This document shows positions 1,264-63,690 of a stretch of DNA of 64,000 bases, piece after piece; position 1 is the first letter of the stretch, and each line of letters opens with the position of its first letter. The translations under genes and the position numbers were made by a program. The stretch covers positions 10,202,001 to 10,266,000 of the forward strand of contig NC_092573.1 in NCBI RefSeq assembly GCF_037975245.1, read 5' to 3'. Under the pieces are notes generated by a model. The model was not told where the DNA came from. It saw nothing but the letters and a program-made list of their open reading frames with translations, and ran no database searches. The DNA is from Apostichopus japonicus. Taxonomy: Eukaryota > Echinodermata > Holothuroidea > Aspidochirotida > Stichopodidae.

Positions 1264-4200
1264 TTATATATAGGAGTAAATGGAAATGTAAGCCATTACT
1301 AATACAAAATAAATGGTAATGTACGGTACTGATGCACGATTAGGGTCAGGTCTACTCTCAATCCAATCCCGAAAAGTGGACACCCTTGTATAGACTCCCG
1401 GGACTCCTGCTTGACATTCAGGAATCCCAAACGATACCACTCCTACCAGCTCCATGACAGAAGGATCGTCATTTCTGTAGCAAGCCAAAGGACCGCCACT
1501 GTCACCCTTGGAAAAGGAGAAGCAAGTATAAATATGAAAACTATCAAACTACTGTTGACATCAACTCGGTATAGAATTAGGGATCGAGAGGGGCAAGGCA
1601 ACTTTTTATGGAGCGGTGGGGGGGGGGGGGGGAGTTAGAAATTGCCCTGGATTTTCATTTCAATGGCAGGTCACCACGGATATTTCTTTTCTACATTCAA
1701 CAGACAATTTTAAACGGAAACATATATATATATACAAGTAATGTTGACAATCAGGGCAAGTAGTAGAAAATTCCAGGATTAAGAGAATGGAATTTAATTG
1801 TTCCATTTCTTTAAATGATGAACGTGTGTGGGGGGGGGGGGGGTGGGGATCTTTAATTCTGTTTCATCGCATGCTTTGCATTCCAGGACTACGTGGTAGC
1901 GTGTTGCTGTAGTAGCCTCATTTTTGTTGCCAATCGTCTTAGGAGAAGCACCTACTTATCCTCTCTATCGGCCCTTTGGCTAAGATCATGTGTAGTATCT
2001 GTTCCCTTTCGCCGGGAATGGTGATGCACACCCGACGATGATCACACAGTCACAGTCCCGATGCAAGGGGACTGCGGGGGTTGAGAGCGGATCAGTTGTT
2101 CCGTAGTTTTGGTTTCGTGCCCAGGGTCTTTCCTGGGTGACTTTTCTTAAAAAGTAACTAAATCCTCTCTATCCATATAATCAGTACTGAATAGCTGCTA
2201 TACTTGAATAGCTGCTACTCTCTATTTTTATATGAGTTTTCAGTATTTTATGTGGTATTTGTAAGTCAGTTATTTTATAACATTACCTTACAGTGACAAA
2301 TTGTCTTGAACTATTTGAAGTACAGCGTCGCATTTCATCAGGCTTTTTATATACTAAATGTAGATGTTACTTGACACAAATCATTATATTTCAACCTTAG
2401 TTAGCAAGTAAGTGTAGAAGCAGAGTCAATTAAGTTTTCACTCACACAGCATGAAGAACATGCATACTTCACTATCACTATATAGTGATTGCTAGTCAAT
2501 CATTGGAATGAATATTCGTGCCCATGGCTCTATCTTGAATGACTTGTCTTATATACAGTATATCCAGCGGAATGGATTCAACTTACTGAACATGCAGCTG
2601 ACGTTTGGCTTCCTGCGCACAGCATGGTTTCATCGATATATCCAAATCTTTCCTCGCACATAGAGTTGTTATACAGCTCCAATGGGGTGTACTGGAGAAC
2701 ATTCGACAATAGGTAGTCTGGGATTTGAAAAAAGAGAGCATACTAAGTGTCACATGCATACGTTATCAACGTTCGAAGGACTATATATCGCTGCGGCGGC
2801 TGCGCCTATAGAGAATGTGACGGCCAGGCCTGACGAGAGGGGGTCTGGTCGGGTCGGGTCGGGTGGATTGATTCAGAGAGAAAAGGATACCACGGTTTTT
2901 TTTCTCCCACTTTATTAACTTACAATTAATAAAATGGAATCAAGAAAAGTGTCGCCGTTATTGCCATTTGCAGTTTGGGTCAACTTGCAACAAATTGGCA
3001 GATCAACCTAAGAGGTTGCCAAGCCGTCAGAACTGATGCTGATCCTCACTCTAACTATCCCACGTTAAGCACGTTTAGTATCTCGTGTGGGTAGAGGGTC
3101 TAGGCATCTTCACCCGGGTCTAAACGGAAAAAAGGTTGTGCTAATAACTACTTTAAATTATTGTGCAAGGTTGAGAATACGGTGTAAGCTTAGCCCCTCC
3201 CATCCCAAGAATACAGGATTCGCGCCTTCAAACATCCACACGTATATGATTGTCGTAAAATAACAACCCCCACTGGGGAAAGTGTCTCAAGTGAATGTTT
3301 AATTTCTTGATTTTTAAGGAACGCTTTTGTACAGAACGTCAATACGATGTTAGCTTACAGACTTAAAGCATCGAATCAGCAGGACTTCATGTTTAAAGGG
3401 TGTGAAGACTCGCGCAAAAAGAAACGTATACTGCCGGTAATCTGACCTAGTTTCGAATGAGGTGTAACAGAAGTGTTAGACACCACCATCGATCCCAGAA
3501 AATACGCACACAGCTTGCTACCTTCGATAATTAGACATTAGTGTACAGTCAGTACATACAGCAGCGGTCAATACCCACAGCACAGTGTACAAACGATACA
3601 GCGATGGACATCTCAGGTCCAGCTAAAGATAGCAAGGTATCACGTTTCATTACTGTCTGCATTTTGTAGCGACAAGCAGAAAACTTCACTTGCAAGCAAC
3701 GGAACACAGAGCGCGGCACGTGGCTTGGGGTGAGAAAGCAGCCTGATGTGAATATTCGGCTATGGGGAAATCCGAGGGCTAATTATAGTTACGCATAAAT
3801 TACAGTACCGTTCCTGTTTGACTTTATATGTTGACGTTATAGATATTGGCAGCATTATCGGGTAAACAAACAAGTAAGCAATTTTTATCCAACGACTTTT
3901 ATACACTGACACAGATACTGTTTTTCACTTTGCTGTTGCCGGATGTATTCATAAAATACCAAAGAAATTTTGAAACTCCATATCTTCGTGATAAAAATGC
4001 TTATGAGAATGTAGTTTTGACACAAAGATGCAGAAAATTTCCAACATGTGTTTTTAATAAGCAATTCAACTTCAGCCACCGACATAGGCGTAGGAGGCGG
4101 GGGGCTGGGGGGGGGGGCTGCAGCCCCCCAACCATATTTTTTGGTGAAAATTATCTGAGAATTTTTCGGGCACCTACTGAAAGAATAATAATTTGCAGTG

Positions 4201-31000: not shown

Positions 31001-34000
31001 TTGTCAGTACGAGCAGTATGAATATCATGCTTCTATCAGATCAAGGTTAGGAACTGTTTGTACTGTCAATACAGCATGATATGGGAGGACAATTTAGAGA
31101 GGTATTAGCATTAGGAAATTGTTCCAACTGGCTGTAAATGGAGGTCTATACATGTATGATTAGTCATATTCATGCCCACAGTTTCAAGGTGTGGATTGTA
31201 TTTAAATCTCAGTGTCAATGGTACCTACAGTCATGATATGTATACATACTAAACAGTTCCAATGTGATATACGGATTGTAAAATTCTAAAACTCCAAGGT
31301 TACCATACCATTATACAAGACTGCAGGTTAAAAAGTCTTGTGCGTCGTATTTGTTCTGCAGTCAAATGTCGACAGTTGTAATTTAAGTAATTTGGATAGT
31401 ATGAGCCTCTGATTGCTAATCAAACTGACCATACATAGAGACAGGTATGCCATGACTTGCTCTATAATCTCGGGAAAACTTATGCCATAACTGTCTTCAG
31501 TATTTATCCTCACAAGTAGCACCTCGAAAGTATCAAAGTGATTCGAAGGACATTCTCTGGAGTTTTTTCCAATCCTTGAACGTAATCCCTGCTTTTCATT
31601 TGAGATGGGTCAATTTTCTATCATATTTAGTAGCAACACTGAACTATTTTCAAATAAGCAGTTTTTCCTCATGTCAGATGTATCCTGGGTATGGTTGTTG
31701 CTGCCACACACACAAAGAATGATTTATTTTCCCCCTCGAAATTACCAAAACCTTTCAAACTTACTACAAAAACCTACTACAAAAAAGAATCAACATTTTT
31801 CGGAAGTGTTAGTTGCAAAAGTCTCACTCACGGTATGAAGAGCATGTTGTTATAATAATAACATTTGCTTTTTATATAGCGCTTTATACCAGCGATAGGT
31901 CTCAAAGCACTTTACAGACGCTTTACAGAGACGATCCCTCCAGTCGACAGCAGTTATATACTGCGCCCAATGACAAGTTACCTCACAGGCACCCATTAAG
32001 CCCCTGGGTGGAGAGAGGCGAGTGAGATAAGGCATCTTGCCCAAGGACACAACGTAATGAACTAGGCAGGAATCAAACCAGCAATCCTTGGATCACGAGT
32101 CCGACGCCTTAGCCAATTGGCCACCACGGTCTCACCTAAGGTTGTTAGTCGACTGATCATCGGTTACATTATTCAAGGTTATGTTAAATGCATACTGCAG
32201 ATGTCAAGGCTTGTCTGAATAACAGTTTGTAAATAGTGCATTTAGGTTTTGTAGGGTTTATTAGTACTTAGACAAAAAGTAAGCAGTCAGAAACCACACA
32301 ACCAAAGTGAATTGAAGAAAATATCAAGTCAAAATTTTATTTGAAACCATATACATCTTTTCCAATAGAATACTGAGATAGACCATTTAAATGTCCCGTC
32401 TGAGTAAAGAATGTCTTCCAGATGTTTAGTTACTGTTGTCTGCTACAAACTCTACACAACTAGCACTAATCTCATGATAATCTGTCATTAGAAACGCTGG
32501 AATATAAAGTCAGTACAAATCACCAAAGCCATGAAAAATATTGATATTTAACTGATTGCAAATTTAAATTGCCCTACTGTACTACTATGTTAAAGCCTTG
32601 GCAAACTTGGTGTCCATTTTGAGCATAATAGAAATTTACAAGAGCGGGTAGAATAATCCATTGTGTTCCAACAATATGCCCTTTATACAGTGATCTAACA
32701 TCTAACATCATTATGTAAAACAAGGGGGGGGGGGAGGGAGGGAAAATGAGGAGGAAGTTAAAAGATATCCATTCATGCATGAATTGTCTATGACTCACTA
32801 TTTTCCATTTACCAACAGTCATGTGTCAACATTGTCTGTTTATAATACTCAATTATGATTACTGTAGACTCAAACCTACAGCTGCACTCTTGAGGCAATT
32901 GTTATTGACAAAGATTGTGCAAGGCATTGTACAACACAATAGGTGTACTATACATTGTAGAGCTCTACACAAGGAACTAGGGAAGCAACTTAAAGAGCCC
33001 AATAATACATGCGAACAATGTTGTTGGATATATGGGAAAAGCCCACTTCACCTCTTGGTGTGTAGTTTAGATACATTTGTCATGCTATATATTGTATAAA
33101 TACTGTGCTGGGCAATTTTCAATGGTTGTCTGGGTCATAGGAGACAACCAAATTTCTGTTCGGAAGACCAAAATCAGCTTTGGAGGTCTTCTGATAGACT
33201 CTGTACTAGTAAATGTTTACATCAAATTCAGATTGCATTATAATTATATACCCCCAAATAGCTGAAAGGATAAATATGTATCACCCTCCCTCACTTTGGA
33301 GATGATGAAATAAATCAATAGTAGTGGTAGGCTTATGATCCACCTGAAGAGGAGTTTACAGGTGTTCTGTGTTTCACCAATTTAACCTTTTTATACACAT
33401 CTCTCCTATTAGTGCACATATTGGTCACTCTTTGTTATTTTGCTACATTTTTTTTGACATCGGCTGTGCGGACAACCAAAAGGGTACCTGTACCAGGTTG
33501 TCCAAGGGACAACCAGAAAAAAGTCCTTAAACTGTTTCCCTTGACCTTGAAATATCCTTAATATTCCATCTCCACACATTTGTCAAAGAAATCCACAAGA
33601 GGTACAATTAGTCTGTATGTCTCTCTCCTTAGTAAAGTGCTACTGTAAAGTCTTTAAGCTATTCACACCATATTTCAATAAAGACATGTTGTTGAACATA
33701 AAATATGAGGGACAAAAAGTGTTTAAAAGTAGCACGGGTGAACACATTTCTGGACCCACTTCACTATCCATGCTATGGGTGTGCAATATGGAGAGATTGT
33801 GAAAACATATGATTCAAATTCTTTCTTCATACTAGATTATTAAGAGATTCATTTTTGTTGTGTCACTGGGAGTATGTATATGCATTAGATATCTTCATCT
33901 CCCCCCCACCCCCCCCCTCCACCCACCATGTAGCCAGATCTGAATGGATATTTTGGAAAAAGTTAGAACCCAATGGTGACTAACATAAGTTGCTATAAAA

Positions 34001-52846: not shown

Positions 52847-52998
52847 AACACCATCAGGATCCCATCAGGGTCCTAACACCATCAGGGTCCTAACACCATC
52901 AGGATCCCATCTGGGTCCTAATACCATCAGGATCCCATCAGGGTTCTAACACCATCAGGATCCCATCAGGATCCCAACTCCATCAGGATCCCATGGTT
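52847..52998. repeat. 28-bp minisatellite (ACACCATCAGGATCCCATCA...)
   Basis: About five to six copies of a 28-base unit built from CACCATCAGG, ATCCCATCAGG and GTCCTA; one copy lacks its middle 11 bases. Units differ by single bases (CATCTGGG, GTTCTA). Confidence 0.9.
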
Positions 52999-53098
52999 AC
53001 AGTCTCAATGAAGAGAGGACTGGGCTTGAGATTGGATCCAGTTGTTTGTGTTTCTTGCCCAGGCTCTATCTTGTGTGACTTTTCTTAAAATATTTTAT
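52993..53098 (+). mobile_element. Body fragment related to the U2-headed SINE
   Basis: GGTTACAGTCTCAATGAAGA, GGATCCAGTTGTTTGTG, TTTCTTGCCCAGGCTCT and GTGACTTTTCTTAAAA align in order with the body and tail of 1969-2161 (CAGTCACAGTCCCGATGCAA, GGATCAGTTGTTCCGTAG, TTTCGTGCCCAGGGTCT, GTGACTTTTCTTAAAA). The U2 head is absent and a 28-bp minisatellite stands in its place, so the copy is truncated or rearranged. Confidence 0.7.
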
Positions 53099-53712
53099 AG
53101 TCGATTAATTTTGAAATACCATCCAGTGATCATTGTTTACATCAGGTTAGCATTACAAGGTTCTCAACATTGTTCAGTATCATTGAGAATTAATAACAGT
53201 ATGGTGTGTGTTTAGTATGAACTCACCTAATGTTCCATAGTAAATATTTAATAGTATATTAATTTTGAAAAACCATCCAATAATCTGTTGTTTACATCAG
53301 GTTAGCATTACAAGGTTCTCAATATTGTGAAGTATCATTGAGAAGTAATAACAGTATGGTGTGTGTTCGGTATGAACTCACCTAATGCTCCATAGTAATT
53401 ATTTAATAGTAGATTAATGTTGAAAAACCATCCAGTGATCTGTTGTTTACATCAGGTTAGCATTACAAGGTTCTCAATATTGTGAAGTATCATTGAGAAG
53501 TAATAACAGTATGGTGTGTGTTCGGTATGAACTCACCACATGTTCCATAGTAATTATTTAATAGTAGATTAATGTTGAAAAACCATTCAGTGATCTGTTG
53601 TTTACATCAGGTTAGCATTACAAGGTTCTCAATATTGTGAAGTATCATTGAGAAGTAATAACAGTATGGTGTGTGTTCGGTATGAACTCACCACATGTTC
53701 CATAGGAAATTG
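53099..53712. repeat. About 155-bp tandem array, four units
   Basis: Units start at 53099, 53252, 53408 and 53563 (spacing 153-156). Each contains ATTAAT.TTGAAA, CCATCCA (CCATTCA in the last unit), TTTACATCAGGTTAGCATTA, CAAGGTTCTCAA and ACAGTATGGTGTGTGTT. The later units are almost identical and the first is more diverged, so growth seems to have proceeded from one side. It begins exactly where the U2-SINE-related body ends. Confidence 0.95.
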
Positions 53713-55891: not shown

Positions 55892-57014
55892 ATTCATTCA
55901 TTGTTTGCGTTTCTTGTTAACAGAAAGGACTTCTTACAGAGCTACATACATACCTGTCGACTGAGACGCAAACATACATCATTGATTTAGCCAATATTTT
56001 GAATACTTTCAAAGATACATATCTAGCATACCAAAATAGATATAGAAGTTACAATGACCAGCATTTCTTTTATGTTTTACATTTTCAAACTGTTATATGT
56101 CTTTGATAATATCAACAGTCATAAAGGTGGTTACATGGGAGGGATGAGAAGGGGGGGGGGGGCTGCTGCACAAACTTCAAAGGGCAGTAGAAGTAAGAAC
56201 TTCCCAATGTACAATGGTATTAAAGGTGAGGCTGGACCACATACTAGAAGATCGACTACCCTACTGGTTCACCTATTGCTTGCTTTGTACCCCCACCCCC
56301 CCCGCCCTACGCGCCCCATCTTGCAGACTTGCACATATGACCAATGGCTGACATAAGAAAGAATTCCCCAGTGTTTTGTCGAAGAGCGACGACTTTTAAC
56401 ATTCGAGGGAGCTATACGCATTTTGCCAGCAGAACCGTATACAGAAATACAGGTCTGTTTGCAACTTTCGAGAACTACTGTAGTGTGTAAGTCAAACCTG
56501 ATCGAGCTGTACAAAGCGCAGTTCTGCAGGTTCGAAAACTACGGCAATACAGAGTAGGCTTATATAATACTCTTAGCTGTAATCCGGACAACGCTATATG
56601 GGCATACACTAAGTGGGAAGGACACTGAGAGAAATATTGTGAATTTTTTATTCCAGAAAGATATTAACTAGACTAATATCACTTTTTAGAAAGCAAGCTG
56701 ATTTGAAAACTTTAAGTTGTGAAGTGAAACATGTTTAAAACAAGATTTCCGCGCAATTGGTTACATTCAATCAAGACTTTTATGTAGGCCTATAATGTAG
56801 TATCATCATGGAGTTAGTGAACCTAGGGAATATCCATGATATCACATTTGTTGAAAAGAATAAAAGATACACATTTGATTTCGCATAATTGGAATGACCG
56901 ACAAAAGATTAAACAATACTTGTACTCCTTTTTTATTAAAGGAAAATCACCCAGGATAGAGCCAATTAGGCACGAAAAAACAAATATCTTAATCCTAATT
57001 CTTAGTCCAGTCCC
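55892..57014. other. Intergenic DNA without recognised genes
   Basis: It contains a G-run at about 56148-56162 and a C-rich patch near 56291 but no inverted ends with matching duplications. Nothing else is recognised. Confidence 0.5.
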
Positions 57015-57605: not shown

Positions 57606-58742
57606 CTAATAACGTTTGACACGCTCAAGCAAATTTTGGGTTTGCCGACACAAATCTGCTAACTTATTATCATACAAGGTACTATTTGTCACACTGCTAA
57701 TACTTCTTGGCAGGTGGCTGATGTTAGAGTGAAGCCCTCTGGTGACTCGAGCACTGCGACGTAGTGGTTGGGTGACCTCGCTGTCATCAGACCATGAATC
57801 AGAGTCATCACTGGTTGATTGCTTACGTCTCGTTAGGGCACCTTCAAAATGTCGGCGGAAACCGTAATCCTCTTCACTACTAGAGTCACTGGAAGACTTC
57901 CTTTCCCGATCACACTGAGCTGGGGCAACGGGTTTGAAGACAGCAAAAGGTACGTCTATCAGCTGTGGACATGTCCGTATTTCCCGCCGGTGTACCGTTC
58001 GCTGTCCACCACTACCATCGGCCGGTTCAATGACGTACACAGAACCTTCATTGGGGCGAGAGACGATTTTAAAGACTGTGGAACTCCATTCATCCGCTAT
58101 CTTGTGCATTCCACGGGGATGGTTCTTCAGGTATACCCTGGTCCCAAGAGTTATTGGATGAGATTTGGCCTTCTTGTCATACTGAGTTTTACGAGCCTCT
58201 GCTTCCAAAGACATCTGCTCCCCTGCTTTCTTGAACGCCATCTGTAAATTCTCGGTATGTGACGTCACCCAGTTAGCAATGGGATCCGTGTCGTCTGAGT
58301 CAGATGGAGAATCTACACGCCCCAGCAGGTAATCCACTGGAAGGATTGGGTCCCTTCCAAACATCAAGAAGAAAGGAGACAGACTTGTGGAAGTGTGTGG
58401 TGTGGAATTATAAGCATACAGGACTTCTGGGAGATGGTCTGACCAACGGCGCTTCTTGTTTGGCGGCAGAGTCTTCGGAAGATCATGCAGAATCCTGTTG
58501 AACCGCTCTGCTTGGCCGTTGCCTTCCGGATGGTAGGGTGTTGTTCGGCTCTTGTTGACCCCATACACTTTACATAGGCATTGTATAAGGGACGATTCAA
58601 AATTTCGGCCCTGGTCAGAGTGGAGTCTCTTTGGTGGTCCATACAAAAGGAACCAGTTCCGAACTAATACCTTAGCAGTTGTCTCCGCAGTCTGGTTAGA
58701 TGTAGGTATAGCCTGCGTAAACTTGGAGAAGACATTTGTCAT
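57606..58742 (-). pseudogene. Ty3/gypsy integrase, N-terminally truncated by deletion
   Basis: The open frame of about 379 codons is a retroelement integrase. FSKFTQAIPT, LHSDQGRNFES (second catalytic Asp, residue 44) and YHPEGNGQAERFNR (catalytic Glu, residue 80) show the D(35)E spacing. The downstream GTRVYLKNHPRG and FKIVSRPNEGSVYVIEP region is the GPY/F-like C-terminal domain. The HHCC zinc finger and the first catalytic Asp lie upstream of the deletion breakpoint and are absent, so the protein cannot be catalytically complete. A serine/acidic tail follows (SSSDSSSEEDYG). The plus-strand frames over it are shadows. Confidence 0.92.
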
Positions 58743-58843
58743 CACAAGTATGTTTTCCTTGCCTCTTGTGTCTTCTCATGCTCGAGACTTTCTGCAAGAG
58801 CATCCAGCTGGCGCTGCAGGTCCTTCATCGCTGATTTTGACAT
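58742..58843 (-). pseudogene. Gag N-terminal fragment fused out of frame to integrase
   Basis: The frame opens MSKSAMKDLQRQLDALAESL just after the primer-binding site, the position of a gag start, and stops after 33 codons. The TGA overlaps the ATG ACA codons of the integrase frame, which is in a different register. The last few codons (about KTYL) come from integrase DNA read out of frame, placing the deletion junction near 58750-58765. The predicted helical, charged sequence suits a gag start, but I do not recognise the family from this piece alone. Confidence 0.7.
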
Positions 58844-62953: not shown

Positions 62954-63690
62954 CTAAAGATGTTGATACTTGGATAAAAGATGATTTTTCAACTTGAATG
63001 AAAATGAATTAAGGTACTTAATATTTCTTAATGTATGACTTAGGCTATTCCAGAAATTAACACCATAACAGACGATGGAACGTTTAAAGACATCGGTATT
63101 TATGGGCAATGAAAATAAATTTCCAGAGGATCTGGTGTGGTAGTTATGTATATTATAATTGAAATTAAAGTAATTATTAAAATTGACTGGTAATTTATTA
63201 TTAATAGACTTAAAAATAAAAACTGCACAATGGTATCTATGTAAATCAAAAATATCTAGTAAGTTCAGTGAGCTGAATAGTAGTGGGGTATGTGCTAAGA
63301 AATCAGACTGTGTAATAACACGGACAGCCTTCTTTTGTAATAAAAGCAATTGCTTTAGGTAGGTAGAATATGCATTACCCCAAACAATATTACAATAATT
63401 AAGATGAGGTAGTATGAGAGTATTATACAAGTTCTTGAGAATATACATTGGAACAAAGTCTTTGATTTTATAAAGGACTCCAACAGTTTTTGAGATGGTA
63501 GTTTTAATCTTGGAGATGTGGGAAGACCACTTTAGAGCAGGATCAATAAATAAACCTACGAATTTTATAACCTCAACATGCTTTAACTGTGAGTTGCCAA
63601 TACATATATCTATGTTCTTGATTTTTTTGTGGTTTGGGTGAAAAATCACTGCATAAATGATAAAATGCACATTAGCTAGTTAAGTTTGAA
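62954..63690 (-). pseudogene. 5'-truncated non-LTR retrotransposon reverse transcriptase (C-terminal part)
   Basis: About 238 codons on the minus strand match the region after the catalytic core of LINE reverse transcriptases (CR1/Jockey/L2-like). Landmarks in order are KFVGLFIDPALKWSSHISKI, LYNTLILPHLNYCNIVWGNA, LLLLQKKAVRVI and HNYHTRSSGNLF, then VNFWNSL near the end. The catalytic palm and endonuclease are missing because the element is cut off at about 63690, where an in-frame stop ends the similarity. Such 5' truncation is normal for LINE insertion. The remaining frame has no internal stop, so the insertion may be fairly young. Confidence 0.88.

Follow-up and report, generated by a model that had tools for sequence, protein, structure and literature searches.

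The window, the 64,000-nucleotide stretch of Apostichopus japonicus DNA analysed here (contig NC_092573.1, positions 10,202,001 to 10,266,000), carries on its forward strand a SINE bracketed by an exact 12-bp direct repeat, ATCCTCTCTATC, at 1958-1969 (left target-site duplication, +) and 2162-2173 (right target-site duplication, +). The preliminary description had given an exact duplication of 11 bp; an exact repeat does flank the element, and its length is corrected to 12 bp, the twelfth and last base being the first C of the element, common to both. Within the window ATCCTCTCTAT occurs solely at these two positions, and the chance of an 11-bp match, given 41 x 41 choices of boundary, is ~8e-4. 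The element opens with a U2 snRNA-derived head (1968-2004, +), which corresponds to U2 nt 9-45, lacks nt 1-8 and overlaps the target repeat with its first bases. Identity to human U2 is 35/37, compared with 22/37 for the runner-up on both strands of the window and at most 25/37 in 60 first-order Markov windows, which confirms the U2 5'-domain head noticed earlier at the left end. Of the two differences, one belongs to the host itself, whose U2 genes carry T at nt 30. On 351 bases the Rfam U2 model (RF00004) scores 38.5 bits (E 1.8e-6). With the greater part of U2 missing, this stays under the curated cut-off of 46, and a whole-window Rfam scan at the curated cut-off does not list the head.

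Between the head and the body lies a junction segment (2005-2016, +) that runs from U2 nt 45 to the body start GGGAATGG and reads CCTTTCGCC in the window copy and CCTTTCGAG in the main class of the family. The body itself (2014-2152, +) was delimited in an alignment of 42 copies, and contains a 3' hairpin, CCCAGG-GTCTTT-CCTGGG (2120-2137, +), seen both in the fold of the window copy and in that of the family 3' end. It is followed by AGTA (2153-2156, +), equal to U2 nt 35-38 and kept at the 3' end of recent copies, the same bases that join element and U2 gene in the array described below, and then by an extra ACTAA (2157-2161, +), read from the sequence of the window copy, which precedes the right repeat. 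With z -2.4 to -2.5, the fold of the whole window copy is somewhat better than those of shuffled sequences. A functional fold by pairing of head and body was considered and rejected, as the direct duplex is no better than one with a shuffled partner (571/1000 as good), and nothing of the kind is drawn. ARAGORN (bacterial settings) reported no tRNA head or internal tRNA-type gene in the window, and a search of viral and prokaryote contigs for relatives of the element returned 0 matches.

A related body had been claimed elsewhere in the window, and this is borne out by three 3'-anchored relatives found by blastn and a profile. Matches to the body were obtained with blastn at 52970-53090 (+, E 1e-14) and 56986-56936 (-, E 2e-4); a profile built from the window copy and these two relatives added 2515-2554 (+, E 4e-6), its sole inclusion-level match outside the model. 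By blastn and profile together, the old body relatives extend over 52987-53099 (+) and 56926-57014 (-), both 5'-truncated, and the profile match at 2515-2554 is a short old relative of the 3' end only. All begin downstream of the head position and are therefore uninformative on its presence or lack. The genome relatives of the 52987 copy include copies with a U2 head, and when eight old-relative loci were aligned to the consensus, six started within U2 positions 2-27, one at 37 and one wholly in the body; by these alignments, the U2 head of the family is old. Because old relatives already reach the U2 part, residence in U2 genes would need to be old too, or recurrent. Several old copies, read by eye, end at CTTAAAA and pass straight into the target. 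A minisatellite of CCATCAGGATCC-like units (window 52861-52990, +) adjoins the left end of the old relative at 52987.

The genome searched amounts to 671.6 Mb in 35 contigs. With the whole copy as query, at least 42 places were found that are 82-100% identical (the best 40 of 2458 first-look candidates were scored), and among the matches listed 38 begin at query base 1-3 and four at base 4-6. This query contains the head and is thus biased towards headed copies, so that the body alone (127 bases) was used as a correction. It matched at least 53 places (best 40 of 2124 candidates), six of which, the query itself included, are identical over the 127 bases. Such identity argues for recent activity and supports the earlier suggestion of an active or once-active family; we conclude that the family has been active recently. 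Thirty loci of the 53 places were fetched, 28 with distinct flanks, and an ungapped test found the head in 25 of these 28 loci chosen by body alone, the three headless ones (L084, L086, L089) being 5'-truncated at or inside the body. Pooling gave 79 body hits in 70 loci; once 7 duplicates had been removed, 72 copies with distinct flanks remained, and the same ungapped test was passed by 63/72; in an earlier head test, 3/8 misses show the head by eye.

Pattern counts over the whole genome agree with this. U2 nt 34-45, then the body start within 14 bases, occurs at 722 places, exact AAGATCATGTGTAGTATCTGTTCCC at 622, and a 38-base segment of the body with at most one mismatch at 992, each with a reversed control of 0. 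Many dispersed copies share the U2 head, and the element belongs to a family and is no one-off chimera. A single copy, or a body that is mostly headless, had been named beforehand as outcomes that would speak against a U2-headed family; the 722 head-to-body junctions are contrary to the former, and the headed majority of the distinct body-selected loci to the latter. Some copies have spread by other means, as seen in pairs whose flanks agree by eye (L007/L014, L087/L088), in tandems, and in the one inverted-repeat element read that has the SINE at either end.

The U2 genes of the host form an array on contig C16 at 31.02-31.16 Mb, where they are often 645 bp apart; RF00004 matches fall on this array in 42/46 listed cases, with the other four on C15 (best 46 of 40968 candidates). 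In the stretches of the array that were read, there are five SINE insertions in U2 genes across three stretches, one of them a tandem. Three of them, two located in L053 and the third in L054, have the structure U2 1-45, 142 bases, U2 35-193. Another in L053 is 5'-shortened and preceded by U2 1-53, and the tandem, in L057, consists of two SINEs that follow U2 1-43 and are separated by U2 35-45. A sixth, shortened copy stands after the end of LINE C in L068. Searched genome-wide, the 3'-junction pattern occurs at 8 places, and its reversed control at none. The C16 array accounts for six of these and a diverged U2-like copy on C20 for a seventh; the eighth, on C5, is no U2 gene but a tandem whose elements are separated by U2 35-50. 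Copies of the SINE are thus found within U2 snRNA genes as well, where both junctions were read, and the U2 head is most simply the 5' part of the target gene. In the open-licence papers searched, no SINE is described as residing in U2 genes. SINE tandems outside U2 genes were seen at C2:21947678-21948937, C3:3634903-3635276, C3:23599919-23600450 and L067 (C5:22560000-22561100), the last having one repeat unit joined via U2 nt 35-50, like the array tandem L057.

Aligned over 42 copies, the family has the order U2 nt 1-45, a short variable joint, the body from GGGAATGG, the 3' hairpin, the end CTTAAAAAGTA and the target. Its consensus head is identical to the host's own U2 nt 1-45 at 45/45 positions, and the six U2 genes printed have T at nt 30, as does the SINE. 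Among the 72 copies with distinct flanks, U2 nt 1-45 is unchanged in 9 and nt 10-45 in 29. An exact ATCGCTTCTCGG start is present in 19/72, and the 20 bases upstream match the flank of array U2 genes at 3-10/20; as these bases are unlike the U2 flank, the copies stop at U2 +1. The joints fall into several classes: in 100 listed of the 722 places there are 72 with the long joint CCTTTCGAG or a variant, 9 with CCTTC, 8 with TTTTC, 7 with CCTTA, 3 with TTTTA and 1 with CCCTC. TTTTC prolongs U2 to nt 50 and TTTTA to nt 49; CCTTA and CCCTC joints are found also in copies inside U2 genes, and the C20 copy has the long joint. With the CCTTAGGG and CCCTCGGG junction types present in the U2 array and among dispersed copies, at least two U2/body junction types are common to U2-gene and dispersed copies.

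Of the eight TTTTC places, six are arranged as three inverted pairs with a spacing of 2-3 kb, and the one pair that was read is an inverted-repeat element in which each end carries the SINE. The paired places of the TTTTCGGG junction class do not represent independent insertions, and the class is not counted as six events; L096 has the TTTTC joint in an ordinary place. The inverted-repeat element, of ~2 kb, at L106 (C3:5845363-5847650) has 277-bp perfect inverted repeats at 14-290 and 2025-2301, each with the SINE and its left flank, and further same-joint inverted pairs 2-3 kb apart lie at C2:13099704/13102881 and C3:25407313/25410326. In L023 (275-300, element orientation) a second partial U2 5' segment was noticed by eye directly upstream of a complete head, and this double start looks like an extra template jump, in which reverse transcription would have moved onto another U2-headed RNA.

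At the other end of the element, recent dispersed copies keep AGTA (U2 nt 35-38), the base after AGT being A in 65/68. Read on from AAAAAGT (n=68), the following bases are A in 65, T in 39, C in 38 and T in 39, compared with 22, 25, 5 and 20 in the +30 control, and the likeness of dispersed targets to U2 nt 39-45 lies above background with z 5.6. G42 and C45 of the U2 target are without preference at dispersed sites (5/68, control 14, and 8/68, control 12, respectively). By these counts, recent dispersed copies favour ATCT-like targets, which resemble the U2 site. Strict target repeats are present in 19/42 copies (mean 14.3 bp; mismatched-pair control 1/~210), and under the settings used there are none in 23/42. 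The repeats point to insertion by target-primed reverse transcription.

Three LINEs interrupt U2 genes of the array, namely A (L049, L051, L056, L055), B (L052) and C (L054, L057), and a fourth, D, is located between U2 genes. U2 resumes at nt 38 after LINE A and at nt 35 after B and C, a few bases being ambiguous between element and U2. The ORF2 products of LINEs A-C match Exo_endo_phos (E 3.6e-20, 3.4e-19 and 2.5e-11) and RVT_1 (E 9.8e-34, 3.5e-38 and 6e-36), and the ORF1 products of A and B, the two scanned, carry a zinc knuckle. According to PMC4640811, two kinds of LINE target U2 genes: Keno, of the APE type, and Utopia, an autonomous LINE of the RLE type with a restriction-like endonuclease and variable 5' boundaries; at their common insertion site U2 resumes at nt 39, and weakly specific Utopia families leave U2-like sequence off target. 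In terms of domains and site, LINEs A-C are like Keno, with an APE-type endonuclease and a reverse transcriptase in the same part of the U2 genes. The same U2 site, variable 5' boundaries and U2-like sequence at off-target sites are points of likeness between the system described here and Utopia; unlike Utopia, all three ORF2 products have Exo_endo_phos (APE-type) in place of a restriction-like endonuclease. The APE domain points LINEs A-C to Keno and away from Utopia.

Over C16:30.87-31.17 Mb, three Keno-like LINEs, all with a long open ORF2, and the SINE use one insertion site, and copies of LINE C extend out to 30.87 Mb, where they are more diverged. All matches of the 300-base 3' ends of the LINEs (A 7/7, B 7/7, C 13/13) lie on C16 at 30.87-31.16 Mb. 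Because these 3' ends occur solely around the array and the SINE genome-wide, the LINEs may not be its disperser. The SINE has no sequence in common with the Keno-like LINEs A-C, and blastn of the SINE against LINEs A-D detected no similarity (best E 0.9); the idea that the body arose from a resident LINE by internal deletion was rejected accordingly. A terminal hairpin common to the SINE and LINEs B and C was likewise dropped, being strong in the SINE and weak in B, while C folds otherwise.

SINEs with snRNA heads have been seen elsewhere. The crocodilian SINEU described by Kojima in 2015 reportedly carry U1 or U2 heads, occur in many copies and gained snRNA heads repeatedly; their families are said to prefer a Mariner element and to be tied to a Tx1-clade LINE. 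Like SINEU as so reported, the present SINE is short, has no long open frame, bears a U2 head and is found in many copies; unlike them, it is also present inside U2 genes and has U2 sequence at both ends. SINEU is the named class of SINEs with U1 or U2 heads in PMC5753468 and PMC8010984, and the family agrees with it in its consensus head (45/45 to its own U2 nt 1-45), in its dispersed headed copies (722 junctions; 25/28 body-selected loci) and in the target repeats expected of target-primed reverse transcription (19/42 copies). While snRNA-headed SINEs are thus already known, a route via residence in U2 genes is new, as far as searched in open-licence papers.

The promoters of U1 and U2 genes lie outside the transcribed part, which makes it a puzzle how a SINE gains and uses an snRNA head. 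Residence of the SINE in U2 genes is probably the reason why such elements come to have a U2 head. We consider it likely that the SINE, once inserted in a U2 gene, is transcribed from the promoter of that gene and thereby takes the gene's 5' end along to other sites. Residence, ends, joints and target bias were observed, and we infer the transcription, the enzyme and the order of events. The U2 promoter would drive RNA polymerase II from U2 +1 through the inserted element, and the resulting RNA would begin with the first 45-50 nt of the target gene; TTTT in the U2 head would tend to stop Pol III, which would fit transcription by Pol II. The enzyme of a U2-specific Keno-like LINE would then prime reverse transcription, either at the U2 site itself or at other places with a U2-like ATCT, giving dispersed copies with a U2 head that start at U2 +1 when complete. 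If one of the LINEs A-C disperses the SINE, it would do so without dispersing itself. Fresh insertions in U2 genes would renew the source copies and create new junctions, and the head, being target-gene sequence carried along, might also aid 5' joining on the return of the RNA to a U2 gene. The window element would then probably be a worn (diverged), 5'-shortened member of a U2-headed SINE family with source copies inside U2 snRNA genes. We also lean towards the broader view that the SINE uses the host U2 genes as home, promoter and transcription start, with the Keno/Utopia site as its target, the first 45-50 nt as its head, a genome-wide scatter, and a head renewed on each return, so that the snRNA head would be target-gene sequence and not an ancestral promoter.

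A parallel is offered by R2, whose short internally deleted forms are non-autonomous, sit in the multicopy 28S rRNA genes and are co-transcribed with them. The SINE resembles these as a non-autonomous element resident in a multicopy RNA gene, where we infer its co-transcription; unlike them, it lives in the U2 gene, is at the DNA level no deletion form of LINEs A-C, and has spread widely outside its gene.

Template switching provides a different origin for such structures, and one-off snRNA/LINE chimeras made in this way are well documented (PMC13174262, PMC4476161). Viewed alone, the window element, with its 3'-truncated snRNA, 5'-truncated tail and target repeats, has the anatomy of known L1 chimeras, with an snRNA piece 5' of a retroelement end and target repeats on both sides. 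Chimeras of this kind are described in PMC13174262 as independent single events, usually without further spread; unlike them, the present element is a family with common junctions. Since the whole copy matches at least 42 places, 38 of which start at query base 1-3, and the genome has 722 junctions, a one-off U2/LINE chimera confined to the window is refuted and has practically no probability left. The switch could instead have happened once, with the head taken from U2 RNA by an ordinary dispersed family that later entered U2 genes via the homology of its head. We regard this as unlikely: after a single gain one would not expect several U2/body junctions (U2 1-45 in various joins, as well as 1-49 and 1-50), and recent copies still end in U2 nt 35-38 and insert at targets resembling U2 nt 38-41. 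It would be in keeping with a single gain that the head is present already in old copies, that seven U2-gene or U2-like residences stand against hundreds of dispersed copies, and that switching of LINEs onto U5 and U3, including internal, 3'-truncated entry, is described in PMC4476161 and PMC13174262.

That the 3' ends of LINEs A, B and C are found around the array alone, and are without a match to the SINE, would be expected if a SINEU-like family were moved by another dispersed LINE with a preference for U2 targets, the array copies being side products and the U2 promoter having no role. This seems quite improbable to us, given that 5'-complete recent copies start at U2 nt 1, that the analysis identified no promoter belonging to the SINE itself, and that TTTT in the head would argue against Pol III. 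Under the preferred reading, with source copies in U2 genes, the head, the exact U2 +1 start and the repeated re-acquisition of the head would all follow from the choice of target, and the idea can be tested via RNA 5' ends. An essential spliceosomal gene array would then house a short non-autonomous element together with three LINE lineages at one site, and the U2 array with its SINE and LINEs would be a natural system for studying the persistence of parasites in a small gene family that is indispensable to the host.

The window contains further traces of mobile elements. An ORF at 62954-63679 (-) resembles the C-terminal portion of a reverse transcriptase protein of the non-LTR type, with no Pfam match, and the stretch 31860-32140 (-) begins with a tRNA-like part (Rfam tRNA, 30.8 bits, 32126-32063), followed by a tail like that of tRNA-headed SINEs with a repeated TTA end. 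At 57606-58775 (-) an LTR-type element is represented by an ORF with an integrase core (rve, E 1.5e-10).
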